From Pseudonocardia sp. (GTDB taxonomy: Bacteria; Actinomycetota; Actinomycetes; Mycobacteriales; Pseudonocardiaceae): 34,272 bases of DNA. Positions 197 through 14,089 of the stretch are shown one piece after another. The notes below the pieces were generated by a model. It had not been told where the DNA came from. It saw nothing but the letters and a program-made list of their open reading frames with translations, and ran no database searches. Both the position numbers and the translations under genes were made by a program. Within the stretch, counting starts at the first letter, position 1, and each line of letters starts with the position of its first letter. The DNA lies in NCBI RefSeq assembly GCF_025965585.1, contig NZ_JAOPWR010000332.1, positions 1-34,272 on the forward strand, in the 5' to 3' direction.

Positions 197-252
197 AGGC
201 CGTTCCCGAGCAGGCTTTCACTATGGTGGAGCCGCTGACGAGGGGAGAGGCC

Positions 253-1113
253 ATGCCGCGCAACGCCGTGACGGACGGGCCCGAGGGGCGCACCGCCGGG
301 CAGGCGTACGAGGATCTCTGCGCGCGCCTCGGGCAGGAACGCCGGGTGCTCGTCGCCTTCTCCGGCGGGGCCGATTCCGCCCTGCTCGCCGTGGCCGCCC
401 ACCGCGTGCTCGGCGCGGCGGCGGTCGCGGTGACGGCCGTGTCGGCCAGCCTGCCGGCCGAGGAACGCCGGGCGGCCGCGGCGCTGGCCCGGCGCCACGG
501 GCTCGCCCACGTCGAGGTGTGCACCGACGAGCTGACCCGCCCCGAGTACGTCGCCAACGCCGGTGACCGCTGCTACCACTGCAAGAGCGCGCTGTTCGAC
601 GCCGTCGCCCCGCTCGCGACGCTCTCCGGCGCGGTGGTCGCGCTCGGCACGAACCTGGACGACCTCGGTGACCACAGGCCGGGACAGCGCGCCGCGGCGC
701 AGCGCGGGGCGATCGCCCCGCTGGTCGATGCGCGGCTGACCAAGGCCGCCGTGCGGGACATCAGCAGGCTGATCGGGCTGGACACCGCCGACAAGCCGGC
801 CGCGGCCTGCTTGTCCTCCCGCATCGCCTACGGCGACCCCGTCACGGAGGAGGTGCTGGCCCGCATCGAGGTCGCCGAGGACGGGCTGCACCGCCTCGGC
901 TTCCCCGTCTGCCGGGTGCGTGCCCACGCGGCCGGCACGGTCGCGCGGCTGGAGCTGCCAGGCCCCGACCTGGACCGGGCGGCCGGCCTGCGCGACGAGA
1001 TCGACGCCGTGCTGCGATCCGCCGGCTTCGAGTTCTGCACCCTGGACCTGCAGGGTTTCCGCAGCGGGCGGATGAACGTGCTGCTGGGTGTACCCGCGGT
1101 GGCGGGGCGGTGA
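253..1113 (+). CDS. larE: LarE, ATP-dependent sulfur transferase for nickel-pincer nucleotide (NPN) cofactor synthesis
   Basis: LarE adenylates the pincer precursor and inserts sulfur to form the thiocarboxylates that hold nickel in the NPN cofactor. The PP-loop SGGADS lies at residues 37-42 and the conserved CLSSRIAYG block near residue 186. Besides C186 (equivalent to the single sacrificial cysteine of Lactobacillus plantarum LarE) there is a CYHC motif giving C107 and C110. Three cysteines in this arrangement are known from LarE enzymes that bind a [4Fe-4S] cluster and can act catalytically; that assignment here is inference. Start: the ATG at 253 has GAGGGGAG five to six bases upstream; an in-frame ATG at 223 lacks such a site. 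At 286 residues it has normal family length. It overlaps larB by four bases (GTGA), so the two are translationally coupled. Confidence 0.93.
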   Translation: MPRNAVTDGPEGRTAGQAYEDLCARLGQERRVLVAFSGGADSALLAVAAHRVLGAAAVAVTAVSASLPAEERRAAAALARRHGLAHVEVCTDELTRPEYVANAGDRCYHCKSALFDAVAPLATLSGAVVALGTNLDDLGDHRPGQRAAAQRGAIAPLVDARLTKAAVRDISRLIGLDTADKPAAACLSSRIAYGDPVTEEVLARIEVAEDGLHRLGFPVCRVRAHAAGTVARLELPGPDLDRAAGLRDEIDAVLRSAGFEFCTLDLQGFRSGRMNVLLGVPAVAGR

Positions 1114-1793
1114 CCTCCCGCCCCGGCGACGGGTACACCGATCTCGGCTACGCCCGCCCGGACACCGGCCGGGAGGCCCGGCTCGGCCTGCCCGAGGTGG
1201 TCTACGGCCCTGGTAAGGAGCCGGACCACGTCGCCGGCATCGTGGCCAGCCTGCTGGCGGCGAACGACGGGCCGGTGCTGGTGACGCGGATCGACGCCGA
1301 CGCGGCCCGCCACGTCCTCGCCGCCGTGCCGGGAGGGTCCTACGACGAACCGGCGCGGCTGCTCTGCTGGCGGCCCGCCGCGCGCACCGGCTTCCGGCTC
1401 GCGGTGGTCGCGGCCGGCACCTCCGACGCCCCGGTGGCCGCGGAGGCTGCCGCCGTCGCGTCCGCCGCCGGGCTCGACGTCGACGCCGTCAACGACGTCG
1501 GGGTGGCCGGGCTGCACCGGCTGCTGGCGGTCCGTGACCGGATCGCGGCCGCCGACGCGGTGGTCTGCATAGCCGGGATGGAGGGGGCCCTGCCCAGCGT
1601 CGTGGCCGGTCTGGTGGGCTGCCCCGTCATCGCCGTCCCCACGTCGGTCGGCTACGGCGCGGCCCTGGAGGGGGTGACGGCGCTGCTGGCGATGATGAGC
1701 TCGTGCGCCGCGGGTGTGACGGTGGTGAACATCGACTCCGGTTTCGCGGCCGCGATGGCGGCGCACCGCATCGCCCGGGCCCGGCTCCGGTGA
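1110..1793 (+). CDS. larB: LarB, nicotinic acid adenine dinucleotide carboxylase/hydrolase of NPN synthesis
   Basis: LarB carboxylates C5 of the pyridinium ring of nicotinic acid adenine dinucleotide and releases AMP, giving pyridinium-3,5-biscarboxylic acid mononucleotide, the first step of NPN synthesis. The C-terminal half is PurE-like: a VVAAGTSDAPVAAEAA segment, then AGMEGALPSVVAGLVGCPVIAVPTSVGYG, recognisable by its GMEGALPSVV and PVIAVPTSVGYG motifs. The N-terminal part has the family's RxGLPEVVYGPGK sequence. Length (227 residues) is a little under the 240-260 usual for the family, mostly at the N-terminus. The GTG start overlaps the larE stop. The gene is in one operon with larE and larC. 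Confidence 0.93.
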   Translation: MTSRPGDGYTDLGYARPDTGREARLGLPEVVYGPGKEPDHVAGIVASLLAANDGPVLVTRIDADAARHVLAAVPGGSYDEPARLLCWRPAARTGFRLAVVAAGTSDAPVAAEAAAVASAAGLDVDAVNDVGVAGLHRLLAVRDRIAAADAVVCIAGMEGALPSVVAGLVGCPVIAVPTSVGYGAALEGVTALLAMMSSCAAGVTVVNIDSGFAAAMAAHRIARARLR

Positions 1794-1827: not shown

Positions 1828-3015
1828 GTGATCGTCTGGTTCAACCCCGTCAGCGGGGTCTCCGGCGACATGCTGCTCGGCGCGCTGCTCGAGCTCGGCG
1901 CTCCGCTCGACGACATCCGGGCGGCCGTCGCGGCCACGGGACTGACCGGCTGGACGCTCGACACGGAGCGCGTCCGCCGCGGGGCACTCCTGGCCACGCG
2001 GGCCCGCGTCAGGGTGGCGGACGACGTCCCGGCGCGCCGGGCGGCCGAGCTGCGGGAGCTGGTCGGGCGCGCCCGGCCCGCGCCGGTCGCGGAGCTGGCC
2101 GGGCGCGCGATCGAGGCGATCGCGCAGGTCGAGGCTGGCCTGCACGGTGTCCCGGTGGCCGAGGTGCACCTGCACGAGATCGGCGGGGTCGACACCGTGG
2201 TCGACACGGTCGGTGTCGCCGCCGCGCTGCACCTGCTCGACGTCGCCGAGGTGGTGTGCGGCCCACTGGCGCTCGGCTCCGGCGTGGTGGGTGGCAGCCA
2301 CGGACTCCTGCCGCTGCCCGCGCCTGCCACGGCCGCGCTGCTCGCGAGGGCCGGGGCGTCGGTCACGTCCACCGGGCTGCCGGGGGAGACGGTCACCCCC
2401 ACCGGCATCGCCCTGCTGCTGGCCGCGGGCGCACGCTTCGGCCCGGTGCCGGACATGACCGTGCGCGCCGTCGGCTACGGGGCCGGTGGGCGCGACGTGC
2501 CCGAGCGTCCCAACGTCCTGCAGGCGCTGCTCGGCGCGGCCGCCACCGCACCGGCGGCGGGCGACGTGCGGCCGATGACGGTGCTGGAGACCACCGTCGA
2601 CGACGTGACGGGCGAGGTGCTCGGGTACGTGATCGAGCAGGTGCTCGCCGCGGGCGCCGCCGACGCGTGGATCACCCCGGCGGTGATGAAGAAGTCCCGG
2701 CCGGGGCACACCCTGGCCGTGCTCGTCACTCCCGAACGTGCCGCGGACATCGAGGCGCTGGTGCTCCGCGAGACGGGCAGCCTCGGGTTGCGCAGACGGA
2801 CGGTGGACCGCGTCGCCCTGCCGCGGCGCACCACCACCGTCGACGTGGACGGGCACCCGGTGCGGCTCAAGCACGGGCCGTGGGGGGCCAAGCCCGAGCA
2901 CGACGATGTCGCGCGCGCGGCGGCGGCGCTGGGCCTGCCGCTGCGCGAGGTGGCCGCGCGGGCGCGGTCGGCGGGCTCAGCCTTGGTCGACGACGAACTC
3001 GATCTCGGGCGGTGA
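1828..3015 (+). CDS. larC: LarC, nickel insertion enzyme (CTP-dependent cyclometallase), single uninterrupted ORF
   Basis: LarC inserts nickel into pyridinium-3,5-bisthiocarboxylic acid mononucleotide using CTP, finishing the NPN cofactor. The N-terminus FNPVSGVSGDMLLGALLELG is the family signature; the HLHEIGGVDTVVDTVG histidine/acid motif lies near residues 112-127; the C-terminal LarC2-type region carries TTVDDVTGEVLGY and PVRLKHGPWGAKPEHDD. In L. plantarum larC1 and larC2 are joined by programmed frameshifting; here both halves are in one 395-residue frame. Start: GTG at 1828 with GGAGG at 1816-1820, seven bases upstream. It lies 34 bases after larB. Its last 39 bases overlap the 3' end of the convergent OsmC gene. 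No larA or other NPN-using enzyme is in this window. Confidence 0.93.
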   Translation: MIVWFNPVSGVSGDMLLGALLELGAPLDDIRAAVAATGLTGWTLDTERVRRGALLATRARVRVADDVPARRAAELRELVGRARPAPVAELAGRAIEAIAQVEAGLHGVPVAEVHLHEIGGVDTVVDTVGVAAALHLLDVAEVVCGPLALGSGVVGGSHGLLPLPAPATAALLARAGASVTSTGLPGETVTPTGIALLLAAGARFGPVPDMTVRAVGYGAGGRDVPERPNVLQALLGAAATAPAAGDVRPMTVLETTVDDVTGEVLGYVIEQVLAAGAADAWITPAVMKKSRPGHTLAVLVTPERAADIEALVLRETGSLGLRRRTVDRVALPRRTTTVDVDGHPVRLKHGPWGAKPEHDDVARAAAALGLPLREVAARARSAGSALVDDELDLGR

Positions 3016-3381
3016 GGCCAGGGTCCGGGTCACGTAGCAGACCCGCTTGGCCGCGGTGATCAGCTCGTCGAGCTCGGGACCCCGGGGGGCCGCGGCCCGG
3101 ACGGTGATGCGGAAGGCGTCGAAGCGCGGCCCGTCGTAGCGACCCGTGACGTCCACCCCCAGGCCCTCGAGCGGCACATCGCGCTTCCCCGCGCTGTAGG
3201 CCAGGGCGAGCGTGAAGCAGGACGCGATGGACGCCAGCAGCAGCTCCGTCGGCTGGGGTCCGGTGCCGGTTCCCCCGGATGACTCCGGCTCGTCGGCGAC
3301 CACGGGGAAGCCGCCGGCGTCGACCGTCGCCCTGAGGCCGCCGGTCCAGCTGGCCGACACGCTGCGTTCGGTCGCGGTCAC
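2977..3381 (-). CDS. OsmC/Ohr-family peroxiredoxin-like protein
   Basis: OsmC/Ohr proteins reduce organic hydroperoxides with a pair of cysteines in a cytoplasmic homodimer. This 134-residue protein has the family layout: an N-terminal beta-rich part with GPQPTELLLASIASCFTLAL containing the peroxidatic cysteine (C55), and a second cysteine (C115) in the AKRVCYVTRTL helix. The segment TELLLASIASC is typical of OsmC rather than Ohr. It starts at a GTG with AGGAG nine bases upstream. Its 3' end overlaps larC by 39 bases tail to tail. It is divergent from the 115-residue gene at 3540. Whether it protects the NPN, sulfur or nitrile enzymes around it is unknown. Confidence 0.88.
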   Translation of the reverse strand: MTATERSVSASWTGGLRATVDAGGFPVVADEPESSGGTGTGPQPTELLLASIASCFTLALAYSAGKRDVPLEGLGVDVTGRYDGPRFDAFRITVRAAAPRGPELDELITAAKRVCYVTRTLASPPEIEFVVDQG

Positions 3382-3432: not shown

Positions 3433-3475
3433 GTGCAACACCTGTGCAACGGCGGTGCGACACAGTGCCGATCAT
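3433..3475 (+). promoter_or_regulatory. Three phased heptamer repeats and -10 box, SARP/PhoB-fold type promoter
   Basis: GTGCAAC occurs at 3433-3439 and 3444-3450, and GTGCGAC at 3455-3461. They are exact 11-base-period direct repeats with 4-base spacers (ACCT and GGCG). A -10-like GATCAT (3470-3475) starts exactly 8 bases after the last repeat. Heptamers with 4-base spacers, the last one 8 bases before the -10, is the architecture described for Streptomyces SARP activators; OmpR/PhoB-type regulators also use 11-base direct repeats. The motif itself is not the classic TCGAG SARP heptamer nor the GTTCACC PHO box. The site faces the gene at 3540. The regulator is unknown; the SARP-like protein at 10916-14089 is one candidate. 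Confidence 0.45.
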
Positions 3476-3539
3476 CACAGTGCGCCGACACGTCGAGCGC
3501 ATTGTGGCCCGCCTGCCGGAAGACCCGAGGGAGCCGTCG

Positions 3540-3887
3540 ATGACGACCGTCGCCCCAGTCCCAACCCGTCTGGCCAGCTGCGGAGGTGAGTGCGGCGCGG
3601 CTCTCCATCGCGAGCACCACGACCGCCTGCTGACGGTGGACACCGATCCCGACGTGCTGCTGGGGCTCATGGAGCTCGCGGTGACGTGGCACGAGCTCGA
3701 CTACTCGGCGGAACCGGTGGTCGGACCCCGCCAGTGGTTGACCTTCGCGGACCGCCACCAGTGGATGTTCCCCGACCGGGCCGCGTGGGCGTTCGCACTG
3801 GCCGTCGACATCGTCGGGCGTCGCGTGGTCGGCGCGCCTCCCTCCGAGCTCGACCGGAGGGTCGTCCTCGATCTCGTGCGTGGCTGA
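3540..3887 (+). CDS. Hypothetical 115-residue protein ahead of the coenzyme M-type operon
   Basis: I do not recognise this protein. It begins MTTVAPVPTRLASCGGECG, with two cysteines four residues apart, and has a middle part rich in Trp, His and acidic residues (VTWHELDYSAEP, WLTFADRHQWMFPDRAAWAF), followed by a short helix-like end. No membrane span or signal peptide is seen. The ATG at 3540 has GAGGGAG six bases upstream; an upstream in-frame ATG at 3444 would fall inside the phased repeats and is unlikely. The gap of 77 bases to the phosphosulfolactate synthase gene is AT-richer than its surroundings and may hold a separate promoter. Existence of the gene is supported by the ribosome site and the promoter-like repeats, but not by homology. 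Confidence 0.5.
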   Translation: MTTVAPVPTRLASCGGECGAALHREHHDRLLTVDTDPDVLLGLMELAVTWHELDYSAEPVVGPRQWLTFADRHQWMFPDRAAWAFALAVDIVGRRVVGAPPSELDRRVVLDLVRG

Positions 3888-3964: not shown

Positions 3965-4750
3965 GTGCCGGCTGCTGATTTCCTCGATCTGCCGACCCGC
4001 CGCCCGAAACCGCGGTCGGCCGGACTGACACACGTCCTCGACCCCGGCGCGGGTCCCGCGGCCGTGGCCGACCTGCTCGCCGGTGCCGCCGACCACGTCG
4101 ACATCTGGAAGATCGGCTGGGGCACCGCCTACGTCGACGCCGCACTGGCGGAGAAGATGGCGCTGCTCGCCGGCCACGGCATCGCCGCGTGCCTGGGCGG
4201 CACGCTGCTGGAGATCGCGTGGGCCCAGGGCCGGGCCGCCGAGTGCCTCGCCTGGGCGCGGGACACGGGCTTCGACCGCGTCGAGGTCTCCAACGGGACG
4301 GTCGCGATGTCCCCGGCCGAGAAGCGCGCGCTGATCGTGCGGGCGGCCCGGGACTTCGTGGTGCTGGCCGAGGTCGGTTCGAAGGTGCCGGGGGAACAGC
4401 AGGCGGCGCGGCGCTGGCCCGCCGAGTGCCGGGCCGACCTCGACGCGGGTGCTTCGCTGGTGGTCACCGAGGGGCGCCAGAGCGGCACCGTCGGCACGTT
4501 CGACGACCAGGGCCGGGTGCGTCCCGACGTCGTGGAGGCCGTGGCCGCGGCGGTCGGGGTGGAGCGCGTGGTCTTCGAGGCGCCGCGGTCGAGCCAGCAG
4601 GCCTGGTTCGTGCGCCGGTTCGGCCCGGACGTCAACCTCGGCAACGTCGCGCTGTCCGACGCCCTGTCGGTCGAGACCCTCCGACTGGGCCTGCGCTCGG
4701 ACACCGCTGCCGTGGCGCGCCCGGACGCCGTCGTCGCGGACACGGCGTGA
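3965..4750 (+). CDS. comA: Phosphosulfolactate synthase (ComA/XcbB type)
   Basis: The ComA family adds sulfite to phosphoenolpyruvate to give (R)-2-phospho-3-sulfolactate, the first step of PEP-dependent coenzyme M synthesis. The 261-residue TIM-barrel sequence has the family landmarks in order: THVLDPGAG, DIWKIGWGTAYV with the conserved lysine, a CLGGTLLEIA strand, VEVSNGTVAMS, LAEVGSKVPGE, SLVVTEGRQSGTVG, and VVFEAPRSSQQAWFVRRFG. The GTG start has AGGGTGG just upstream. Its stop overlaps the next GTG by four bases, opening a five-gene overlapping operon. In Bacillus the homologue YitD makes sulfolactate, but the neighbours here (two aspartase/fumarase-superfamily lyases and a D-cysteine desulfhydrase-like enzyme) match the bacterial coenzyme M cluster xcbBCDE, where XcbB is the ComA homologue. 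Confidence 0.9.
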   Translation: MPAADFLDLPTRRPKPRSAGLTHVLDPGAGPAAVADLLAGAADHVDIWKIGWGTAYVDAALAEKMALLAGHGIAACLGGTLLEIAWAQGRAAECLAWARDTGFDRVEVSNGTVAMSPAEKRALIVRAARDFVVLAEVGSKVPGEQQAARRWPAECRADLDAGASLVVTEGRQSGTVGTFDDQGRVRPDVVEAVAAAVGVERVVFEAPRSSQQAWFVRRFGPDVNLGNVALSDALSVETLRLGLRSDTAAVARPDAVVADTA

Positions 4751-5679
4751 CCACCTCGGCTCGCGTGATCAGCGGCCCGAACTTCGTGCCCCTGCGCTAC
4801 CGCGGCGTCGCTGTGGCGACCGTCCCGCCGGATGTCCCGCTCGAGGAGGACTCCCTCCGCGACCACCTGCTGGGCCGTGACTCCTACCGGCGCACGCGGT
4901 TCGTCGTCGCCCGGCGGGACCCTTATGCGCCTGGTCCCACCGCCCTGCTGCAGGTGACGCGGGAGTCGGACACCGCGCTGCTGTCACCGGTGACGGACGT
5001 GAAACTGATCGCCGCTCCCGACGAGTGCGCCTACGTCGTGGAGCCCGACGCCGACACCGGGATCCCGTCGACGCTGGCTGCGGTCGCGCGGACGCGCGCG
5101 CCCGGCGTCCGTGCCGTGGTGGTGGAGGGCCGCTACGCCCACGTCAACTTCATCATCGAGCCGCGGCCGATGCGGGTCATCGTCCAGGAAGTGGTGCCAC
5201 CGCACCCCGCCAAACTCGCCGACCAGGTCCGCCGGATGGTCGACGTGATCGAGGACCTGCCTCCCCTGGAGATCGTCGAGAACGTCGTCCGGCTCGACGA
5301 GCTCGCCGCGCGGCGCGAGGCCGCGCACTACCTGCTGCCGTGCCGCGGCTCCGGGGGAGAGGTTCCCGGTGCGCAGGTGTCGTACCTGGACGAGCATCCC
5401 GAGCGCTCCGACTGGACGCTGCTCGGCTGCACCCGCTCGTTGCAGATCCACCGCGCGTTCTACGGCGACGAGCCGCCGACCGTGGACTTCTGCCCCAAGC
5501 GCGCCGTCGGCGCCGGCCGTCCGGCGGAGCCGACCCTCACGAAGTGCTGCCTGCAGGAGGAGCACGTCGAGTCCGGCGACGGGTGGGTGTCGCTGCCCTG
5601 GGGCTCATCGCTGGAGCACGTACGCGAAGCACTGCGCCGCATCGTGGAGAAGGAGGCCCCGGCATGGGAACCCGGCTGA
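4747..5679 (+). CDS. Unrecognised six-cysteine protein within the coenzyme M-type operon
   Basis: I do not recognise this 310-residue protein. It is clearly a real gene: its GTG overlaps the comA stop by four bases, its end overlaps the next gene by 16 bases, and base usage matches its neighbours. The N-terminal half alternates beta and polar segments (VTDVKLIAAPDECAYVVEPD, AVVVEGRYAHVNFIIEP). A helical stretch follows around residues 155-190. The C-terminal third holds five of six cysteines: C199, C228, C249 and the pair C267-C268 (TKCCLQEE), besides C94. Such clustering could bind a metal or iron-sulfur centre or act as thiol donor or acceptor; this is inference. No membrane span, nucleotide-binding loop or PLP motif is seen. 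Placed between comA and the first lyase, it is a candidate for a step of coenzyme M synthesis not covered by the other four. Confidence 0.85.
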   Translation: MTTSARVISGPNFVPLRYRGVAVATVPPDVPLEEDSLRDHLLGRDSYRRTRFVVARRDPYAPGPTALLQVTRESDTALLSPVTDVKLIAAPDECAYVVEPDADTGIPSTLAAVARTRAPGVRAVVVEGRYAHVNFIIEPRPMRVIVQEVVPPHPAKLADQVRRMVDVIEDLPPLEIVENVVRLDELAARREAAHYLLPCRGSGGEVPGAQVSYLDEHPERSDWTLLGCTRSLQIHRAFYGDEPPTVDFCPKRAVGAGRPAEPTLTKCCLQEEHVESGDGWVSLPWGSSLEHVREALRRIVEKEAPAWEPG

Positions 5680-7025
5680 GCTCCTCGACGCTGTACGCCC
5701 ACCTGTGGGGCACCTCCGCGACGGACGCGATCTTCGACGAACCCGCCATGGTCCAGTCCTGGCTCGACATCCTCGTCGCGCTCGCCAGGGCGCAGGCCTC
5801 GCTCGGCATCATCCCCGCCTCGTCGGCCGATCAGATCGCCACCGGCGCCCGGGTCGAGAATCTCGATCTCGACTTCGTGGCGAAGCAGACGCAGCTCACG
5901 TCGCACTCGACGTTGGGTCTGATCCGCGGCCTGCAGCAGGTGCTGCCCGGGGAGGCGCGCGAGCACGTCTACGTCGGGGCGACCGTGCAGGACCTGACGG
6001 ACACCTGGTTCGGCACTGTCCTGCGCGACGTCGGCTCACTCGTGTGGGTGGAGCTGCGAGCCTGCGAGGAGCGGCTGCTCGCGCTCGCCGCCGAGCACCG
6101 CGACACGGTGATGGCCGGGCGCACGCACGGCCAGCCCGGCTCGCCGATCACCTTCGGCTTCAAGGTCGCGTCCTGGGCCGACGAGGTCCGGAGGCACCTC
6201 GACCGGCTCCGCGAAGCCCGCGACCGGTGGTGCGTCGGTCAGCTCGCGGGAGCAGTCGGCGCGCTCGCCTTCTTCGGCGCCGACGGACCCGAGCTGCGCC
6301 GCCGCTTCTGCGCCGAGGTCGGCCTGGCGGACCCGGGCATCTCCTGGCTCACCGCCCGGGACCGGATCGCGGAGTTCGGTGGCGTGCTGGCGATGGTCTG
6401 CGGCACGCTCGCCCGCATCGGTGTGGAGGTCTACGAGCTCGCGCGCCCGGAGATCGGCGAGCTGAGCGAGCCCGCAGCACAGGGTGCGGTCAGCAGCATC
6501 ACGATGCCGCACAAACGCAACCCCGAGATCGGCGAACACCTCGACACGCTCGCCCGGCTCGCCCGCGCATCATCAGGGGTGCTGCTGGAGGGCATGGTGG
6601 CAGGCCACGAGCGGGACGGCAGGGCGTGGAAGGCCGAGTGGATCGCGCTGCCCGAGGTCTGTCAGCTCACCGCAGCGGCGCTGCACCTGGGCCGCGGACT
6701 GCTCGAGGGCCTGGAGGTGCACCCCGACGCCATGGCGGCCACGCTCGACAGCTTCGGTGGCCTGGCCTCGGAGCGCGTCCTCGCCGGACTGTCCGGCCGG
6801 ATCGGGAAGCACCGCGCCCAGCAGGTCCTGCACGAACTGCTCCGCGAGGGCGGTACGGACAGCGCGAACCTGGCGGCAAGCCTGGCCGAACGTGGACTCG
6901 CCACCGTGGAGGACGTGCGTTCCTGGAGCTCCGGAGCGGCCGTGAACGCCGCCGCCGGCATGGTCGACACGGTGCTGGCCCGCGCCGAGGCGGCTCGCGC
7001 CGCCGAGCCGGCGCTGTGGACATGA
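5664..7025 (+). CDS. Aspartase/fumarase-superfamily lyase, adenylosuccinate-lyase-like (XcbC/XcbD-type candidate)
   Basis: This 453-residue protein has the three conserved regions of the superfamily: HSTLGLIRGL plus GATVQDLTDTW, AGRTHGQPGSPITFG, and the flexible signature loop SSITMPHKRNPEIGEHL. The overall pattern is closest to adenylosuccinate lyase and carboxymuconate cycloisomerase (PcaB). Known members do beta-elimination through a carbanion, usually releasing fumarate. In bacterial coenzyme M synthesis XcbC is a superfamily member that instead eliminates phosphate from phosphosulfolactate to give sulfoacrylate; directly after comA, that is a sensible role here, by inference. In the loop the usual GSS-x-MP reads SSITMP: S278 is kept while the following serine position is isoleucine, depending on alignment. 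ATG at 5664 has AGGAGG seven bases upstream. It overlaps both neighbours. Confidence 0.85.
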   Translation: MGTRLSSSTLYAHLWGTSATDAIFDEPAMVQSWLDILVALARAQASLGIIPASSADQIATGARVENLDLDFVAKQTQLTSHSTLGLIRGLQQVLPGEAREHVYVGATVQDLTDTWFGTVLRDVGSLVWVELRACEERLLALAAEHRDTVMAGRTHGQPGSPITFGFKVASWADEVRRHLDRLREARDRWCVGQLAGAVGALAFFGADGPELRRRFCAEVGLADPGISWLTARDRIAEFGGVLAMVCGTLARIGVEVYELARPEIGELSEPAAQGAVSSITMPHKRNPEIGEHLDTLARLARASSGVLLEGMVAGHERDGRAWKAEWIALPEVCQLTAAALHLGRGLLEGLEVHPDAMAATLDSFGGLASERVLAGLSGRIGKHRAQQVLHELLREGGTDSANLAASLAERGLATVEDVRSWSSGAAVNAAAGMVDTVLARAEAARAAEPALWT

Positions 7026-8071
7026 CCACGATGGGCACGACCGACGCGGGGATGGGCGACGGCGCGCCGCGGTTCCCGCTGTGCGTCCGTCCGACTCCGC
7101 TCGTGCGCGCCCTCCGGCTGGAGTCCGCGCTTCGCAGCGGCCCACTGCTCGTGAAGCGCGACGACCTCATCGGCTTCGCCGTCGCGGGGAACAAGGCGAG
7201 GCCACTCGAGTACCTGATCGGTGCGGCGCTCCAGCACGGCGCCGAGGTCCTCGTGACGGGAGGTGGCCCGGGGTCGAACTTCGTCGCGGCGGCCGCGGTC
7301 GCCGCGAGGACGGCCGGGTTGGACTGCGAGCTCGTGATCTGGGGTGACCCCAGGGGTGCCCCCAACATCGCCATCGCCGAGGCGGCCGGCGCCCGGGTGC
7401 TGCCCACCGGCGGGAACGACCGCTCCGAGATCGACATCCTCGTCGCCGAGCGCGCGGCCGAGCTCACCGTCGCCGGCCGACAGGCGTTCGCGGTGCCGAG
7501 GGGTGGCTCGACCGCCCTCGGCGCGCTCGGGTTCGCCGACGCCGCCGTCGAGCTCACCGCGCAGCTGGGCCGGGACGCGGGTGAGACCACGCTCCCCTCG
7601 GCGATCGTGCTGCCCGTCGGGTCCGGCGGAAGTTGCGCCGGGTTGCTGGCCGGGCTGGCGGGATGCGGCGTGGACATCCCGGTCGTCGGCGTGTCGGTGA
7701 GCCGGCCACCCGCGGAGATCCGAGCCACGGTCCTCGCGCTGGCCGCCCAGTGCGCCGCGCTGCGAGGAACGCCGGCGCCGCGCCCGGACCTGCTCGAGAT
7801 CATCGACGCGCGCGGCCCCGGCTTCGGCAACGTCACGCCACTGGAGACCGAACGAGCTCGACTCGCCCTGCGCACGGAGGGGTTCCTGCTCGATCCGACC
7901 TACGGAGCCGAGGCGTTCTCGGTCGCCGTCGATCGTGTCCGCGGCCACGAGACCGGGCCCGTCCTGTGGTGGCACACCGGCGGAGTGGTCCCGGCCAGTT
8001 CGTGGGTCTCCAGACGGAACACGACTTCCCTACGCGAGGCCGCCACCTCCGGTGGACGAGGAGAACTATGA
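7022..8071 (+). CDS. PLP enzyme of the D-cysteine desulfhydrase/ACC deaminase family (XcbE-type candidate)
   Basis: This is a fold-type II PLP enzyme of 349 residues. After LLVKRDDLIGFAVAGNKARPLEYL comes the family's GNKxR motif; K58 should form the internal aldimine. VTGGGPGSNFVAAAA matches the glycine/serine/asparagine substrate loop of D-cysteine desulfhydrases, and LPVGSGGSCAGLLAGL the phosphate-binding loop. The C-terminus has LDPTYGAEAF and VLWWHTGG, also typical. D-cysteine desulfhydrases release sulfide and ammonia from cysteine; in the Xanthobacter coenzyme M cluster the homologue XcbE is linked to forming the thiol. Start ATG overlaps the preceding stop (ATGA), and its own stop overlaps the next ATG in the same way. 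Family is sure; the exact substrate is inference from the operon. Confidence 0.87.
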   Translation: MTTMGTTDAGMGDGAPRFPLCVRPTPLVRALRLESALRSGPLLVKRDDLIGFAVAGNKARPLEYLIGAALQHGAEVLVTGGGPGSNFVAAAAVAARTAGLDCELVIWGDPRGAPNIAIAEAAGARVLPTGGNDRSEIDILVAERAAELTVAGRQAFAVPRGGSTALGALGFADAAVELTAQLGRDAGETTLPSAIVLPVGSGGSCAGLLAGLAGCGVDIPVVGVSVSRPPAEIRATVLALAAQCAALRGTPAPRPDLLEIIDARGPGFGNVTPLETERARLALRTEGFLLDPTYGAEAFSVAVDRVRGHETGPVLWWHTGGVVPASSWVSRRNTTSLREAATSGGRGEL

Positions 8072-9600
8072 GCGATCTTTCGAGCGGATCACCCACCCGC
8101 CGTACGCGTCCGGAGGGCTTCCCGCAGAGCGGCCCGGCACCCGAGCTGATCGAGTCCGGCTTCGCGCTCGAGAACGCCGACGCGAGCTTCCTGCACCGCG
8201 GGCTCAACCTGGCCGATCTCGCCCACGTGCTCGACCTCGCGCGGCGCGGCATCGTCCCCCCGGACGCCGAGCGCGCGCTGCTGGCCCTGCTGCTCGAGGT
8301 CACCGGGATCGCGCCGGAGGACTTCCCGTACGACCCCGAGTTCGGCGAGCCCTACAACTCCCGGGAGCGGTTCTTCGTCGCCCGGATCGGCGACGTCGCG
8401 GGCTGGCTGCACGCGGGGCGCCCGCGGCGGGAGGCCGCCCGGGTCGCGCTGCGGCTGCACCTGCGCCGCCAGCTGACCGAGCTCGTGACCGAGGCCGTCG
8501 CCACCGCGCTGGACACCGTCGCCAGGGCCGAGGAGCACGCCGACACGCTGCTCCCGGACCAGACCTACCTCCAGCAGGCGCAGCCCTCCACGTTCGGGCA
8601 CTACCTGCTGTCGTTCGTCTACTCGACCGTCCGGGACGCGCGGCGCCTGCTCGACGAGCTGGACCTGCTCAACACGAGCCCGGGGGGCGCCGGCTGTGTG
8701 AACGGCACCCGGCTCCTGGAGGACCGCGGCCCGATCGCCGCGGCCCTGGGCTTCGACGGGGTCATCCCGCACACCCGCGACGCGATGTGGCAGGTCGACG
8801 GCCTGATCCACATCCTGGCCACGGTCGCCAGCCTGCTGTCGAACTTCTCCAAGCTCGCCGAGGACCTGGAGATCTTCTCCTCCAGCGAGTTCGACTTCGT
8901 CGACCTCGCCGACGCCTACAGCCGCTCGAGCATCCTCATGCCGCAGAAGCGCAACCCCTACGCGCTGTCGATCGTGCGCGGCGCGTCCGGGGTCGTCATC
9001 GGGAGGCTCACGGGCTTCCTCGCGGTGACGAAGAGCCCGTCGGCCCGCAGCGACAACCTGATCTTCGCCTACGGTGAGGTCCCGCGGGCGCTGGACCTGA
9101 GCCTGCGCATCACCCGGCTGATGGGCGGCGTCGTGCGCACGCTGCGGGTCAACCCGGACCGGATGCGGCAGGAGCTCGACCGCGGCTACACCCAGGCCAC
9201 GGACCTCGCCGAGCACCTCGTGCAGCTGATGGATGTCGATTACCGGACCGCGTACGTGGTGGTCGGCAACACCGTGCGAGAGGCGGCGCGGCTCGGGATC
9301 CCCGGCAGCGGTATCACCGGCGCGATGGTCGACGAGGCGGCGCTCGCCCACACCGGGCGGTCGTGGGGGCTCGCCGACACGGACCTCTCGGCGGTGCTGG
9401 ACCCCCGTGCGATCGTCGCGTCCCGCCAGGCGGAGGGCGGCGCGGCCCCGGAGGCCCTCGTGCAGATGACGACGACCCTGCGCACGCAGCTGCGGGAGCT
9501 GGCCGGGCAGGCCGAGCAGCGGGCCACGGCCTTCGACGATGCCGAGGCGGCGCTGCTGGAGACGGCCCGCGCCGTCGCTGCGGGCGAGGCCGGCGGGTGA
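8068..9600 (+). CDS. Second aspartase/fumarase-superfamily lyase, argininosuccinate-lyase-like (XcbC/XcbD-type candidate)
   Basis: At 510 residues this is longer than housekeeping argininosuccinate lyase (about 460-470). It has the ArgH-type order of motifs: ALENADASFLHRGLNLADL at the start, PYNSRERFFVARIG, TYLQQAQPSTFGHYLLSF, SPGGAGCVNGTRL, and the loop SSILMPQKRNPYALSIVRG with S287/S288 and K294. Like the first lyase, the loop reads SSI-x-MP rather than GSS-x-MP. A housekeeping role in arginine synthesis is unlikely: no arg genes are near, and it is last in the sulfonate operon. In Xanthobacter both XcbC and XcbD belong to this superfamily, so two such genes in one operon fits the coenzyme M pathway. 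Which of the two eliminates phosphate cannot be read from sequence. GAGGAG lies just before the ATG. It ends seven bases from the convergent regulator. Confidence 0.85.
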   Translation: MSDLSSGSPTRRTRPEGFPQSGPAPELIESGFALENADASFLHRGLNLADLAHVLDLARRGIVPPDAERALLALLLEVTGIAPEDFPYDPEFGEPYNSRERFFVARIGDVAGWLHAGRPRREAARVALRLHLRRQLTELVTEAVATALDTVARAEEHADTLLPDQTYLQQAQPSTFGHYLLSFVYSTVRDARRLLDELDLLNTSPGGAGCVNGTRLLEDRGPIAAALGFDGVIPHTRDAMWQVDGLIHILATVASLLSNFSKLAEDLEIFSSSEFDFVDLADAYSRSSILMPQKRNPYALSIVRGASGVVIGRLTGFLAVTKSPSARSDNLIFAYGEVPRALDLSLRITRLMGGVVRTLRVNPDRMRQELDRGYTQATDLAEHLVQLMDVDYRTAYVVVGNTVREAARLGIPGSGITGAMVDEAALAHTGRSWGLADTDLSAVLDPRAIVASRQAEGGAAPEALVQMTTTLRTQLRELAGQAEQRATAFDDAEAALLETARAVAAGEAGG

Positions 9601-9607
9601 GCCGGGA

Positions 9608-10195
9608 TCAGTCCTCGGGGACGGTCACCCAGATGACCTCGGCGGGGACGTCTCCCACGTTCGCACTGCGATGGTCGAGGTTCGTCCGGAAGTGCAGTGC
9701 CTCCCCGGCCCCGACGGTGTACTGCTCGTCGCCGATCTCCATGTCGAGGCGGCCTTCCAGGACGACGAGCAGGGTCTCGCCCGCCCGGCGCAGCCCCGTG
9801 TGGCCGTCACCCGGCGCGACGCGGGAGACGGTGCCGTTCACCCGGAGCGAGTCGCCTTGGCCGGTGATGGGCACGGGCCCGCTCACGGTGGCTCCGGCGA
9901 AGCGGGTGTGCACCGCGCCCGGCCCGGGTTCGGCGTCCTCCACGAAGTGCCGGATGGGTGCGTCGAGCGCGCCCGCGATCTTGAGCAGCGTGGTGATCGT
10001 GGGGACCATGTCCCCCCGCTCGACCTTGTGCACCGCCGCGGTCGAGACGTCGGCGAGGTGGGCGAGCTGCTGCAGCGTCATACCGCGCTCGCGGCGCAGG
10101 GCGTGCACCTTGGGGCCGATCGAGCTCACCACACCTTCCCAGGTGCCGGGCGCATCATGGGCGGGCTCGGGTGCGGGCCGAGCGGAGCTGGGCAT
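9608..10195 (-). CDS. XRE-family regulator with C-terminal cupin sensor domain
   Basis: A 195-residue transcription factor. A helix-turn-helix of the XRE/Cro type spans about residues 30-85 (LRRERGMTLQQLAHLADVS, then STAAVHKVERGDMVPTITTL), and a single-domain cupin fills about 125-190 (GETLLVVLEGRLDMEIGDEQYTVGAGEALHF, with a DHRSANVG strand). Regulators of this XRE-cupin type sense a small ligand or metal in the cupin barrel; E. coli SutR, which controls sulfur-use genes, is one example. Start: ATG at 10195 with GAGGAG five bases upstream. It faces the coenzyme M-type operon tail to tail (seven bases apart) and is divergent from the 215-residue gene at 10259. A role controlling the sulfonate operon is plausible from position only. 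Confidence 0.9.
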   Translation of the reverse strand: MPSSARPAPEPAHDAPGTWEGVVSSIGPKVHALRRERGMTLQQLAHLADVSTAAVHKVERGDMVPTITTLLKIAGALDAPIRHFVEDAEPGPGAVHTRFAGATVSGPVPITGQGDSLRVNGTVSRVAPGDGHTGLRRAGETLLVVLEGRLDMEIGDEQYTVGAGEALHFRTNLDHRSANVGDVPAEVIWVTVPED

Positions 10196-10258
10196 CGGGT
10201 CTCCTCGGCGGGCTGCGACAGCTGGGGTCGACTGAGTATGGATGACGGAGGGATCAGG

Positions 10259-10906
10259 ATGGACACACCCGCGTACCCGGAAGCCCGCCCGGCGGAGAGC
10301 GGAGGTAGGACGTCGACGGAGGTGGCCACGGCCAGGATGCGCTGGCGGGCGGCGGCCGAGTCGCTGTTCCCCACCCTCGTCGCCGACCCCTCCGGCTACG
10401 CCGGTGCGGTGGAGGCCATCGGCGCTGTGGCGTCCGCGCTCGGTCGGCGCAACGCGGATCTCGACGATCTGGTCGACGCCGTGGCCGCGCCGGAGCGCCT
10501 GGTGGCGGAGCTGGAGGTACGCGTCCCGCCGAGCGTGCCCGTCGCGCTGCTGGTGGCCGTGGCCTGCGGCATGCGGGAGCGGGACCTGATCACCGAGCAG
10601 GTGCGCAGGGACCGCAGCGCCGCCGTCGCGCGGGCCCGCGCCACCGGGTCGCAGTGGGCCGTGCTGGAGGGACCCGAGCGGATCGAGGACCTCACCGGCG
10701 GCGATGCCGGAGGCCCCGCCGGGTGCATCCATCTGCATCTGCCGTCCGGCACCGAGCTGCGGGCCACGGTCGACGCGTGGTCGCGCGAGCCGTTCCGGGT
10801 CGACGTGATCCCGTCGGGCGGCACGACCCCGACCGGCCGTTCGTTCACAGAGCGCGGGGCCTGGTTGGACGAGTTCCACCGCGCCCGCGCGGACCTGGAG
10901 GCCTGA
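10259..10906 (+). CDS. Hypothetical 215-residue cytoplasmic protein divergent from the XRE-cupin regulator
   Basis: I do not recognise a family. The protein is soluble: a helical N-terminal half (residues about 25-130, including ALRRRNADLDDLVDAV-like segments and VAVACGMRERDLITEQVRRDRS) and a beta-rich C-terminal part from about 140 (WAVLEGPERIEDL, GCIHLHLPSGTELRATVDAW, FRVDVIPSGG). The C-terminal part could be a small ligand- or substrate-binding domain. ATG at 10259 has GGAGGG at 10247-10252, six bases upstream; another ATG at 10238 is less well placed. It shares its 63-base promoter region with the XRE-cupin gene, so it may be a target of that regulator. It is convergent with the large SARP-type gene, nine bases away. 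Confidence 0.7.
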   Translation: MDTPAYPEARPAESGGRTSTEVATARMRWRAAAESLFPTLVADPSGYAGAVEAIGAVASALGRRNADLDDLVDAVAAPERLVAELEVRVPPSVPVALLVAVACGMRERDLITEQVRRDRSAAVARARATGSQWAVLEGPERIEDLTGGDAGGPAGCIHLHLPSGTELRATVDAWSREPFRVDVIPSGGTTPTGRSFTERGAWLDEFHRARADLEA

Positions 10907-10919
10907 GCGAGCGGCTCAG
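10903..10919. terminator. Short hairpin covering the stops of two convergent genes
   Basis: CTGAGC (10903-10908) and GCTCAG (10914-10919) pair perfectly around a five-base loop. The arms contain the stop codon of the 215-residue gene and lie at the stop of the SARP-type gene. There is no T-run on either strand, so it is at best a weak bidirectional terminator. Confidence 0.3.
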
Positions 10920-13900
10920 CGCGTCGCCGTGCGGGGCGTGCTGAGCCGCCCGGACGCGGCGAACGTGTGGCGCAGCTCGGCCGGCAGGGCCGTGGCGATG
11001 CGGTCGCGTGCGGCCGACTGCTCCGCAGGCGCGCCGAGCTGGGCGAGGAGCAGATCCGACCGGGTCGCCGACGCGATCCCGGCGGCCTCCTGCGGTCTGC
11101 CGAGGTGCGCCAGCGCGAGCGCCTCGTACTTGGGCGAGGAGTACCGCCGAGCCTCGATCAGCAGGTGCTCGGCCTCGGAGGCGTCCCAGCGGGCGCGCAT
11201 CTCCAGCAGTCGCATGGCGGCCCGCGGGCGGAACGGCAGCGAGCGTTCCAGCATGGGGGTAGCGGTCTCCACGGCCACGGCGGCGTCGTCGGGGCGGCCC
11301 TGCATCAGGTCGCAGTCGGCGACGGCGAGAAGCGCGTGCAGCTCCTGCTCCAGCTCCAGGGCACCCCCGCCGCGGTGAGCCAGCTCCACCGCCCGGACGG
11401 CGTGCTCGCGGGCCCGGTCGACCTGGCCGAGCTCCTGCCACATCCACGACGTCGTGGTCTCGATCCCGGCGCGGTAGAAGCCGAGGTTCTCGGCGTCGAC
11501 GAGCCTTCGGGCGTTGTCCAGCGCGCGCAGGGCACCGGCGAAGTCGCCGATGTCGCCCCGGGCGAGTGCGGTGAAGAACAGCGTCTGCAGCAGGGGCCGG
11601 AACTCACCTGTCCGGCGGCAGAGCACCGCCGCACGGGCCAGCACGCTCTGGGCCTCGGCGAAGCGGTCCTGGTGCTGCAGCAGCGCGCCGCGGTAGGCGA
11701 GTGCGAGTGCGGTGGTGGTGTCTGCCGGGGCGCTCGCGAGGACCTGGTCGTAGGCGGTCTCGGCGCCGCTGTAGTCGCCGTCCCAGTGCCGGACCCGTCC
11801 CAGCAGGAGAGTGGCGCTGGGCAGAGCACCCGGAGCGGCCGCGGCGGACTCCGCCAGCTGGGTGGCCTGCTCGGCGAGGTCCACCGCGACGAGCGCGTCG
11901 CGCGCGTACAGCGCTGTCCAGCCCAGCTGCTCGAGTGCGCATGCCTCGAGCGCGAGGTCACCGAGCTCCCGCGCGAGGCCGAGCGCGTGCTCGTGGTCCT
12001 CGCGCGCGCTCGCGTGCCGCCCGAGATCACACCGCACCTGGCCTCGACGGAGGTACGCGCCGACGGTCTGCACGCCGTCGCCACCCCGGGTGGAGTACTC
12101 CACGGCCAGGTCGAGCAGGCGTTCCGCGTCGGTGTGGGCGAAGGACACGTGCGCCGCCTCCGCTGCCGCGAGCCAGGCGTCCGCGGCACCACGCGCGTCA
12201 CCCGCCGCGGCGAGGTGCTGGGCGGCGGCTTCCGGGCGGCTGTCGAACAGCCGGGCGGCGCGGCGGTGTCTACTGATCCGGACGGGTTCGGGGACGGACG
12301 CGTAGGCGACCTGCCGGACGATGTCGTTCGCGAACCGGAAGCTGTCGCCGTGGGCCATCAGCAGCCCGGCCCGGATGGCCCGGCCGGCCTGCGTGGCGGC
12401 GTCCTCGACGTCGACATTGCTGAGCGCCGCCACGTCGTCGAGGGAGAAGGTCGTGCCCAGCACCGCCCCCTGGGACAGCAGTCGGGCCACCGCCTGCCCG
12501 GCGTGCTCGATGCGAGCGGCCACGGCATCGTGCAGCGAGTGCGGTATCACGGGCCTGCTGCCGTCGGTACCGGGTTCGGGGTGCCGGAGCACCTCGGTGA
12601 GGAACAGCGGCGAGCCACCGGTCCACGACCAGATCCGGTCCGGGTCGTGGGCCAGCCCGGACCGCTCGACGAGCATCGCCACCTCGCCGGCCGACAACGG
12701 GCCGAGCTGCAGGCGGGATCCGACGTCGAGCAACGGCCCGGTGACATCGGCGTCCTCGGACGTGCGCTCGGTGAGCACGACCATCCATCGGCTGCCCGCC
12801 CCGTGCCCGGCCAGCACGTGCAGCGCTTCCACGGTGGACTGTCCGGCGTGCTGCATGTCCTCCACGACCAGCAGCAGCGGCCGCCGGGCGCCGACGCGCG
12901 CCACGAACTCGGCGACCGCGTCGAGGCTGCGCCGGTGCTCCACCTCGGGACCCGCGCGTTCGTACTCGACGGGCCCGACGACGTCGGCCAGCTCGGGCAG
13001 CAGCTCGGTGAGGGTGCCGAGCCGGGTGGCGGCGAGCTCGCGGACGTCGCGGGCGGTCATCCGCTGCACGACGGCGCGCACGGCCTCGACGAGTGGTTGC
13101 AGGTAGAGCGAGCGCTCCGCCTCGTAGCACGCGACCTGCACGACCAGGGCGCCCGTCCGGAGCGGCTCCTCGACGAACGCCGCGACGAGCGCGCTCTTGC
13201 CGATACCCGCCTCGCCGGTCACCACCGCCAACGCCGGTGTGCCCGCCACCGCGGCGGCCCACATCTCCTGCAGCCGGGCCAGCTCCACGTCGCGTCCCAC
13301 CATCGGTCCGGTGGTGGGGCTGGTGGCCGACGACGGGTCGGGCGCGACGTTCTGCTCGGAGCGCAGCACCGCCAGGTGGAGGGCCTGGGTGGCCGGCGAA
13401 GGGTCGATGCCGAGGTGCCGGACGAGCGTCTCCCGCAGCGCGCGGTACGCCAGCAGGGCCGCGCCGGACCGTCCGGCCTGCTGGTGGGCGAGCATCACCG
13501 TGCGGCAGGCGTCCTCGTCGAAGGGATCGGCCTGCATCGCCGCCGATCCGACCTGTACCGCGGTGTCGTAGGCCCCCAGCTGGAGCGCGGCCGCGCTCCA
13601 GGCGATGCGAGCCCGGCGGAGCTGGGTGCGGACGTGTTCGCGCAGTGCGCGCACCCACTCGCCGTCGCGTTCGTCGCCCATCGGGGTGTCGGCATCGAGG
13701 AGCTTGGCGGCCTGCTCGCCGCTGGTGGAGGCGAGCGCTGGATGACCGTGCGCCAGCTCGAACTCGGCTGTCCCCACCAACTCGCACGCCTCGTGCAGGT
13801 CGACGTCCACCTGCGGGCTGAGCCGGTACCCGACCGCCGACCCGTCGATGAGATCCCGGCCGAGCGCTTTGCGCAACCGGCTGACGAGGGCAGCCACGTT

Positions 13901-14089
13901 GCGGTCGGCGCGCTCGGGCGGATCCCCCTCCCACAGCGCGTCGATCAGGGCGTGGACCGTGACGAACTCTCCACGCCGTTCGGCGAGGGCCGCGAGGGCA
14001 AGCCTGGCTTTTCCGGTCGGCAGGGGTGCCGACAGCTCACCCTCAACGGTGAACGGACCGAGCAGACACAGCCGCATCGCCGGTCTCAT
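10916..14089 (-). CDS. AfsR/SARP-type regulator: winged helix-BTAD, STAND-like ATPase, TPR repeats
   Basis: This 1057-residue protein has the layout of large actinobacterial SARP regulators. Residues 1-90 form an OmpR-like winged helix (LCLLGPFTVEGE, VHALIDALWEGDPPERADRNV, VSRLRKALG). Residues about 95-245 form the bacterial transcriptional activation domain, ending in LVRHLGIDPSPATQALH. An AAA/STAND ATPase starts at MVGRDVELARLQEMW, with Walker A GEAGIGKS (K298) and a Walker B-like LLLVVEDMQ. From about residue 600 on, the sequence is helical TPR-type repeats. Such proteins activate secondary metabolism or specialised operons by binding phased direct repeats; ATP binding gates oligomerisation. 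There is no LuxR domain at the C-terminus. The ATG at 14089 is used; 14077 is possible. It is transcribed away from the CoA-transferase and toward the 215-residue gene. Targets are unknown. Confidence 0.88.
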   Translation of the reverse strand: MRPAMRLCLLGPFTVEGELSAPLPTGKARLALAALAERRGEFVTVHALIDALWEGDPPERADRNVAALVSRLRKALGRDLIDGSAVGYRLSPQVDVDLHEACELVGTAEFELAHGHPALASTSGEQAAKLLDADTPMGDERDGEWVRALREHVRTQLRRARIAWSAAALQLGAYDTAVQVGSAAMQADPFDEDACRTVMLAHQQAGRSGAALLAYRALRETLVRHLGIDPSPATQALHLAVLRSEQNVAPDPSSATSPTTGPMVGRDVELARLQEMWAAAVAGTPALAVVTGEAGIGKSALVAAFVEEPLRTGALVVQVACYEAERSLYLQPLVEAVRAVVQRMTARDVRELAATRLGTLTELLPELADVVGPVEYERAGPEVEHRRSLDAVAEFVARVGARRPLLLVVEDMQHAGQSTVEALHVLAGHGAGSRWMVVLTERTSEDADVTGPLLDVGSRLQLGPLSAGEVAMLVERSGLAHDPDRIWSWTGGSPLFLTEVLRHPEPGTDGSRPVIPHSLHDAVAARIEHAGQAVARLLSQGAVLGTTFSLDDVAALSNVDVEDAATQAGRAIRAGLLMAHGDSFRFANDIVRQVAYASVPEPVRISRHRRAARLFDSRPEAAAQHLAAAGDARGAADAWLAAAEAAHVSFAHTDAERLLDLAVEYSTRGGDGVQTVGAYLRRGQVRCDLGRHASAREDHEHALGLARELGDLALEACALEQLGWTALYARDALVAVDLAEQATQLAESAAAAPGALPSATLLLGRVRHWDGDYSGAETAYDQVLASAPADTTTALALAYRGALLQHQDRFAEAQSVLARAAVLCRRTGEFRPLLQTLFFTALARGDIGDFAGALRALDNARRLVDAENLGFYRAGIETTTSWMWQELGQVDRAREHAVRAVELAHRGGGALELEQELHALLAVADCDLMQGRPDDAAVAVETATPMLERSLPFRPRAAMRLLEMRARWDASEAEHLLIEARRYSSPKYEALALAHLGRPQEAAGIASATRSDLLLAQLGAPAEQSAARDRIATALPAELRHTFAASGRLSTPRTATR

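Follow-up and report, generated by a model that had tools for sequence, protein, structure and literature searches.

A coenzyme M-type biosynthesis operon of Pseudonocardia with a probable link to nitrile and cyanide nitrogen assimilation

A 34,272 nt stretch from Pseudonocardia sp. (positions 1–34,272 of contig NZ_JAOPWR010000332.1, assembly GCF_025965585.1; the window from here on) contains, at 3965–9600 on the plus strand, five open reading frames that resemble the xcb genes for biosynthesis of coenzyme M (CoM) in alkene-degrading bacteria. Our comparisons lead us to propose, with a probability of roughly 0.6, that this operon makes CoM by the Xcb route and that CoM serves the assimilation of nitrile or cyanide nitrogen encoded in the same supercluster, and not alkene degradation. 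This proposal is based on the order of the xcb genes, on the failure to find an epoxyalkane:CoM transferase (designated here EtnE), and on the conserved linkage, in related strains, to Nit1C-type genes and to genes for nitrile hydratase, AllFGH, carbamate kinase, a flavoenzyme and an OsmC-family protein. The link of the CoM operon to a nitrogen pathway is, by itself, quite probable. The window is the whole of contig C305 of a 6.8 Mb assembly in 555 contigs, with a completeness of 98.8% and a contamination of 5.13%.

The xcb operon of the window

The preliminary description of this DNA, made from the sequence alone, reported five genes with overlapping ends, and the coordinates and the domain matches from Pfam and NCBIfam agree with it; consecutive frames overlap by 4, 16, 4, and 4 bases:

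3965..4750, plus strand: xcbB, ComA-type phosphosulfolactate synthase, 261 aa (Pfam ComA, 267.9 bits)
4747..5679, plus strand: xcbA, DUF7714/XcbA family, 310 aa (NCBIfam NF052538, 322.1 bits, cut-off 150; Pfam DUF7714, 308.3 bits)
5664..7025, plus strand: xcbD, lyase of the aspartase/fumarase superfamily, 453 aa (NF052536, 571.6 bits, cut-off 600; Pfam Lyase_1, 123.6 bits)
7022..8071, plus strand: xcbE, pyridoxal phosphate enzyme of the D-cysteine desulfhydrase family, 349 aa (best model NF052537, 222.3 bits, cut-off 450; Pfam PALP, 113.8 bits)
8068..9600, plus strand: xcbC, lyase of the aspartase/fumarase superfamily with an ASL_C2 domain, 510 aa (NF052535, 419.1 bits, cut-off 575; Pfam Lyase_1, 125.6 bits)

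The composition originally proposed, xcbB, C, D, and E plus an unknown protein, holds for the four named genes, all of which were matched, and the unknown protein is XcbA, which that proposal did not list. Comparison of synteny, as it had suggested, revealed that the order B-A-D-E-C is common to the window, to plasmids pMYCCH.02 and pMYCCH.01 of M. chubuense NBB4 and to pNOCA01 of Nocardioides JS614, with identities of 38–55%: XcbB is 55% identical to the copy from pMYCCH.02 and, with respect to the NBB4 copies, XcbD is 52%, XcbC 42%, and XcbE 38% identical, the latter showing 43% identity to the JS614 copy. The window likewise contains, in a single run, all five proteins of Xanthobacter autotrophicus Py2, although here the gene order is different and the Py2 genes are spread over at least two plasmid loci. 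The presence of the same genes in the same order as in the NBB4 and JS614 clusters supports that the window contains a bacterial xcb-type operon for CoM biosynthesis; we take the roles of the Xcb proteins no further than the NCBI family names.

When the curated NCBIfam cut-offs are applied, only XcbA of the five window proteins is above the threshold, while XcbB (best model arch_ComA, 232.4 bits, cut-off 280), XcbD, XcbE, and XcbC are below it, even though an Xcb or ComA model is the best match in every case. The NBB4 proteins, used for calibration, behave similarly, with ComA (230.1 bits), XcbE (310.4), and XcbC (399.1) below and XcbD (710.8) and XcbA (400.2) above cut-off, whereas the four Py2 proteins scored, which do not include XcbA, were all above. 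As only two of five NBB4 proteins but four of four from Py2 pass, the Xcb cut-offs appear to favor Py2-like sequences. An identity of the two lyases with the housekeeping enzymes PurB or ArgH was discarded from the NCBIfam scores, and not from a tree, as the Xcb models are ahead by at least 145 bits: for XcbC, by 145.7 bits over argH (273.4 bits) and, for XcbD, by 165 bits over the next model, an adenylosuccinate-lyase subfamily (406.3 bits).

The predicted structure of XcbA has a high score (94.5) in the predicted local distance difference test (pLDDT). Foldseek retrieved no PDB match at E ≤ 0.001, with template modeling (TM) scores over the query of 0.09–0.19 in the 50 rows listed, and the only PDB relative retrieved by sequence was a chance-level match (E 0.92). 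Residues C199, C228, C249, C267, C268, and H132 are invariant in the structure alignment (53 rows), which suggests a metal or thiol site; the list of XcbA proteins was compiled without L041, L060, L078, and L085. The XcbA family also matches Methanosarcina acetivorans, below cut-off.

Two kinds of xcb locus

A search with XcbA found 145 loci, of which the best 80 were kept, and alkene-type loci are thus under-sampled. Typing these 80 loci by tblastn with marker families resulted in 40 loci of alkene/epoxide type, 31 of window type, 9 of neither type and none of both; seven of the nine are on contigs of 3.4–11 kb and the other two are from Chloroflexi (L068 and L083). EtnE or XecA itself was found beside 26 of the 40 alkene-type loci, four of which (L039, L047, L071, and L082) owe their label to one marker only. 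The neighbors of the 31 window-type loci comprised an OsmC-family protein (24 loci), a flavoenzyme resembling coenzyme A (CoA) disulfide reductases (22), a protein of around 85 aa (22), NitB of the MSMEG_0572 family (21), a NitF-type protein (sll0787; 19), an XRE-cupin regulator (18), the small protein F11 (18), a NitE-type GNAT (15), AllG (14), a radical SAM protein (MSMEG_0568; 7), carbamate kinase (7), AllH (6), nitrile hydratase beta (6) and alpha (5) subunits, FdrA/AllF (5), a glycosyltransferase (5), and an amidohydrolase (4). None of the window-type marker families was found by tblastn beside any of the 40 alkene-type loci, and this absence is the sole independent part of the count, because the families were drawn from the window-type loci; conversely, the surroundings of all 31 window-type loci were free of alkene-type markers. 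Among the latter, L030, L034, L035, L038, L053, and L085 are weak assignments (contig below 11 kb or a single marker), and L070, on a contig just above 11 kb, has a complete set of markers.

The phylogeny of XcbA grouped 30 of 32 window-type rows in one clade (support 100/98); the exceptions were L070, nested among alkene-type rows, and L085, a 3.3 kb contig with one weak marker, outside of the clade. The clade spans Pseudonocardia, Actinomycetospora, Nocardioides, Terrabacter, Sphaerimonospora, and Microbispora, plus metagenome-assembled genomes (MAGs), and Pseudonocardia supplies all ten of the XcbA proteins closest to that of the window (68–72% identity). The two kinds of locus also differ in their surroundings. 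The NBB4 and JS614 clusters adjoin genes for CoA-transferases, a CoA-binding or acetate-CoA-ligase-type gene, and dehydrogenases, and that from pMYCCH.02 also adjoins an EtnE candidate, annotated as methionine-synthase-II family and located next to an alkene monooxygenase gene; none of these CoA-transferase, CoA-ligase-type, dehydrogenase or EtnE genes is beside the window xcb genes.

The possibility that the pathway serves alkene enzymes elsewhere in the genome, raised in the preliminary description, implies that CoM feeds an epoxyalkane:CoM transferase in classical alkene or epoxide breakdown. The genome search does not support it: the best EtnE match had 71.7 bits (32% identity), as opposed to 317–842 bits in all 18 genomes with alkene-type loci used as positive control, and no epoxyalkane:CoM transferase was found. 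The name EtnE is our own label, the query being an NBB4 protein that is 47% identical to the product of a Py2 gene annotated as 2-hydroxypropyl-CoM lyase. Matches on contigs C75 and C180 (28–37% identity over fragments) were dismissed as distant relatives. In this comparison, covering 48 of the 80 loci, EtnE exceeded 300 bits in one of 30 genomes with window-type loci, MAG G024, which has its own alkene-type locus (L090) as well; G022 gave an intermediate match of 154 bits. In a set of 62 genomes of Pseudonocardia, including that of the window, EtnE was present in four (G087, G097, G100, and G101), all with alkene-type XcbA, and in none of the 27 with window-type XcbA. Genes for soluble diiron monooxygenases do occur in the window genome, with five PF02332 matches above cut-off:

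L127:7786-11284 (contig C51): diiron monooxygenase set, PF02332
L128:7547-10666 (contig C202): diiron monooxygenase set, PF02332
L129:468-4890 (contig C540): diiron monooxygenase set, PF02332

Two matches each are on C51 and C202, together with small-subunit genes in the set size expected of aromatic/alkene-type monooxygenases, and the fifth, on C540, adjoins genes for a reductase and a GroEL-like protein; no NCBIfam model separated alkene from aromatic or propane types, and one of these sets may carry out an alkene-oxidizing step. The window itself has no PF02332 match and no EtnE neighbor, as already observed from its sequence. The classical role is thus highly improbable: it agrees with the gene order shared with alkene degraders, with the diiron monooxygenases and with the distribution of a 98.8% complete genome over 555 contigs, but not with the low EtnE match, with the rarity of this enzyme in window-type genomes within and beyond the genus, or with the lack of alkene-type markers around all window-type loci.

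The two Chloroflexi loci (L068:405-10883 and L083:9995-18987) have a different setting, with xcb genes beside MtaA/MtbA-like methyltransferases of the URO-D family, whose matches to methylcobamide:CoM methyltransferase models are all below cut-off; L068 also carries a corrinoid protein, an MtrH-like protein and a RACo-type activator. CoM may be a methyl acceptor in these two loci. We met no report of this arrangement in the open-access literature examined, as far as its accessible text goes.

The nitrogen-linked supercluster and the product of the operon

Splitting the genus set by XcbA score, 33 of the 62 genomes contained this gene: 27 scored 294–335 bits (window type), five scored 379–414 bits (alkene type), and in G071 it is split in two overlapping frames, so that this genome was placed in neither type and counted among the 35 others. 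AllG was present in 27/27 window-type genomes and in 6/35 of the others (G050, G067, G069, G078, G087, and G100; Fisher p = 4e-12, without kinship correction). Also, 22 of the 27 window-type genomes (G108 by a partial match) have NitB and XcbA on one contig, no more than 10 kb apart, and in the remaining five, which include the window genome, the two genes are on different contigs.

Four strains with assemblies of 1 to 4 contigs (G075, G104, G059, and G072) contain a contiguous supercluster of around 24–27 kb. In all four it includes lar genes, the OsmC gene, xcb, the CoA-disulfide-reductase-like gene, the gene for a protein of around 85 aa, nitB, F3a-type genes and a BTAD regulator, as well as genes for carbamate kinase, FdrA, a glycosyltransferase, nitrile hydratase and AllG. 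Other genes were called in only some of them (F11, XRE-cupin, a separate GNAT and NitF in 3/4, AllH in 2/4, and the radical SAM protein in 1/4, G075), and these gaps may be due to the gene caller, a simple codon-usage script that overlooked the XRE gene of the window and, in the related strains, either overlooked or fused some others. The whole gene set lies between the lar and BTAD genes in G075, where NitB, NitD, NitE, and NitF occur together, with part-sets in other strains.

The supercluster shares with the Nit1C clusters of cyanotrophic Pseudomonas (nitBCDEFGH) and Synechocystis (sll0783-0787) the proteins NitB (MSMEG_0572/Sll0783), a NitD-type radical SAM protein (MSMEG_0568), a NitE-type GNAT and a NitF-type AIR-synthase-like protein (sll0787, below cut-off); the correspondence of the Nit letters to NCBI families is our own assumption. 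It differs in the addition of nitrile hydratase, AllFGH, carbamate kinase and xcb, in having a flavoenzyme of the CoA-disulfide-reductase type, and in the lack of the nitrilase NitC inside. Indeed, in G075, G104, G072, and G059 the genes called from lar to the opposite end of the cluster include no nitrilase, with no genome-wide search for it, and a nitrilase-superfamily gene below all cut-offs occurs beside larE in G059, just outside the cluster, and beside NitB on contig C443 of the window genome. In turn, the clustering of FdrA/AllF, AllG, AllH, and carbamate kinase is reminiscent of the oxamic transcarbamylase operon allFGHK of E. coli; here, however, these genes are not all adjacent, they are joined with CoM synthesis and nitrile hydratase, and there were no allantoin genes among the neighbors inspected. 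As separate observations, the NitF-type protein at L051:8099-9133 has a further match, to methanogenesis marker 2 (184 bits against a cut-off of 365), and the NitB family search matches Methanosarcina acetivorans, which could be another tie of cluster genes to CoM-using archaea.

The window retains the left part of the supercluster, comprising lar, OsmC, F11, xcb, XRE, F3a, and BTAD genes:

223..1113, plus strand: larE, sacrificial sulfur transferase (NCBIfam LarE, 291.7 bits, above cut-off)
1110..1793, plus strand: larB, nickel-pincer cofactor biosynthesis (LarB, 258.7 bits, above cut-off)
1828..3015, plus strand: larC, nickel-pincer cofactor biosynthesis (Ni_insertion, 387.9 bits; LarC1/LarC2 above cut-offs)
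2977..3381, minus strand: OsmC-family protein (Pfam OsmC, 68.6 bits, above cut-off)
3465..3887, plus strand: F11, small protein upstream of xcbB (no Pfam match)
9608..10195, minus strand: XRE-cupin regulator (HTH_3 and Cupin_2)
10241..10906, plus strand: F3a family protein (no Pfam or NCBIfam match; homologs in Pseudonocardia superclusters)
10916..14089, minus strand: F17, large BTAD-ATPase-TPR regulator (BTAD, 79.2 bits; AAA_16; TPR)

Homologs of F17 border the superclusters of G104, G059, G072, G075, and G067, and a 68% identical copy is on contig C436 of the window genome. The supercluster opens with larE-larB-larC both here and in eight of the ten nearest Pseudonocardia loci; no larA turned up in the cluster, with no genome-wide search for it. 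The conserved families F3a, F11, and F8 (around 85 aa; L020:12419-12679) have no Pfam or NCBIfam match, the NCBIfam score of F11 being from L020 only. To the right of the cluster, positions 14378-25192 contain genes for a CoA-transferase III, LysR, LacI, CobW, polysaccharide deacetylase, asparaginase, and transporters, which were not seen in the superclusters inspected in those related strains.

The rest of the module is distributed among other contigs of the window genome, which holds AllG, FdrA, and carbamate kinase; Nit genes, none of them in the window, are on C114, C496, C122, C50, C436, and C443, some as fragments. The pieces on C114, C122, C50, and C436 are 56–82% identical to the superclusters of strains of the same genus and are therefore unlikely to be foreign contamination. 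C114 and C436 both break off within nitB, their final segments covering the same family positions (118–159, 53.3 bits each), as would occur at a repeat, and the failure to find the flavoenzyme may be due to such an assembly gap. The assembly also contains near-duplicates, with two carbamate kinases, two FdrA, two nitB ends and a second AllG end (L103/C114, L110/C436, L105/C122, and L111/C248), which would represent either two copies of the module or a mixture of strains, the assembly contamination being 5.13%. A second ComA-type synthase (265.8 bits), without XcbA, is encoded on contig C323 (L002; L012:15426-19992), next to genes for a histidine phosphatase, a glyoxalase-fold protein and an efflux transporter; its product is possibly sulfolactate or other sulfonate.

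Natural losses and replacements bear on the product of the operon. The supercluster of G067 keeps xcbB and xcbC and has lost xcbA, xcbD, and xcbE; contig C33 of this genome carries an alkene-type xcbA-D-E trio (XcbD, 701.8 bits, cut-off 600; XcbE, 294 bits, cut-off 450), its single ComA-type gene genome-wide is inside the supercluster, and there is no EtnE. Likewise, the cluster of G100 has a truncated xcbA and no xcbD or xcbE, with alkene-type copies elsewhere in the genome, and in L070 an alkene-type XcbA is beside the nitrogen-linked module; G100 is probably the genome that contains L040, as the EtnE matches of both have identical coordinates. Additionally, the conserved residues of alkene-type Xcb proteins are mostly kept: these proteins have 353 columns with a conservation of at least 93%, of which 279 remain unchanged in at least 90% of the window type, 72 vary and 2 are switched, in a comparison that left out L041, L070, L085, and the loci with neither marker set. 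The patterns of exchange in G067, G100, and L070, with which the conserved columns agree, suggest that both types of xcb genes make the same product, CoM. In the alternative, also considered in the preliminary description, diverged enzymes would make another sulfonate, such as a cysteine adduct or other mercaptosulfonate, for the nitrogen-linked module. This would fit with XcbE, only 38–43% identical to alkene-type copies and, at 222 bits, well below its cut-off, and with the similar failure of XcbB, XcbC, and XcbD, but the NBB4 copies miss three cut-offs too; furthermore, in G067 alkene-type proteins replace the lost XcbA, XcbD, and XcbE with the cluster XcbB as the sole ComA available, and the switched columns are only two. 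We consequently consider a different sulfonate unlikely, a judgment drawn from sequence comparisons.

A possible role for CoM

Published work indicates that nit1C is essential for growth of Pseudomonas on cyanide, through the nitrilase NitC (PMC11049912), and that AllFGH of E. coli convert oxalurate to carbamoyl phosphate, in an operon shared with carbamate kinase (PMC11326118). For the supercluster, we tentatively propose a route from CoM-thiocyanate through S-carbamoyl-CoM to carbamoyl phosphate, whose details are doubtful, in which CoM would be a thiol carrier of the cyano group. Oxidized CoM would capture cyanide as CoM-thiocyanate, with the flavoenzyme and OsmC managing the thiol/disulfide redox state of CoM; nitrile hydratase would hydrate CoM-thiocyanate to S-carbamoyl-CoM; AllFGH would phosphorolyse the thioester-like bond of the latter, releasing carbamoyl phosphate and free CoM; and carbamate kinase would finally yield ATP, ammonia, and CO2. 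Cyanide attack on disulfides produces thiocyanates, and the nitrile hydratase alpha subunit from the cluster also matches a thiocyanate hydrolase model, below cut-off (200.9 vs. 291.5 bits). Succinyl-CoA synthetase phosphorolyses a thioester, and AllF (FdrA) matches Pfam Ligase_CoA (106 bits) and the alpha subunit of succinyl-CoA synthetase (51–53 bits). In turn, the PDB relatives of the flavoenzyme include NADH oxidases, CoA-disulfide reductases, and CoA-persulfide reductases, and its motif SPCGIP presumably corresponds to the single-cysteine site of CoA-disulfide reductases, which it resembles.

CoM could also be a general low-molecular-weight thiol or redox buffer, with the nitrogen genes adjoining xcb through common induction by nitrogen starvation. 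The OsmC and CoA-disulfide-reductase-like genes are, indeed, among the most constant neighbors of window-type loci, and NitB and its relatives are named nitrogen-starvation proteins; nevertheless, the tight, repeated linkage to carbamoyl-transfer genes, with AllG in every window-type genome of the genus, fits better with a shared pathway, and the patterns of loss and exchange keep the module with an Xcb set, which make a simple redox buffer quite improbable.

Several observations weigh against a role of CoM in nitrogen assimilation, besides the origin of the marker families, the EtnE of G024, the diiron monooxygenases of the window genome, and the lack of NitC described above. XcbE is divergent, being the member furthest below the cut-off of its own model. 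Nitrile hydratase and NitB occur in 56/62 and 50/62 genomes of the genus and were rejected as evidence from presence or absence, as both are too common, so that the argument was built on proximity and AllG alone. The remainder of the module is, in the window genome, on other, short contigs (C114, C122, C50, C436, C496, and C443); AllH did not turn up, with no genome-wide search for it, and the CoA-disulfide-reductase-like flavoenzyme was not found (best match, 31%). Likewise, its two whole nitrile hydratases (C472 and C70) are not of the cluster subtype, with identities of 61–65% for the alpha and 34–42% for the beta subunit, and C443 carries two whole copies of NitB with only 51–53% identity to that from the cluster. 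Finally, the chemistry of Nit1C itself is unsettled.

According to PMC11507031, genes for CoM biosynthesis were known only from methanogens and alkene-using bacteria. Among the open-access titles and beginnings of abstracts listed, a scope outside of which are bioRxiv preprints and most subscription papers, there was no report of a link of CoM to Nit1C, cyanide, nitrile hydratase or carbamate kinase, in Pseudonocardia or other actinobacteria. The existence of a whole clade of CoM operons that lack neighboring alkene genes and adjoin nitrogen genes points to an as yet undescribed bacterial use of CoM. If this is true, CoM would have a second job in aerobic bacteria, outside of alkyl and epoxide metabolism, and the Nit1C cyanide genes would gain biochemical partners with assayable reactions. 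The supercluster would then allow an energy-conserving assimilation of cyanide and nitriles, a plausible ATP-yielding path to ammonia in aerobic actinobacteria, with enzymes that would be relevant to cyanide clean-up.

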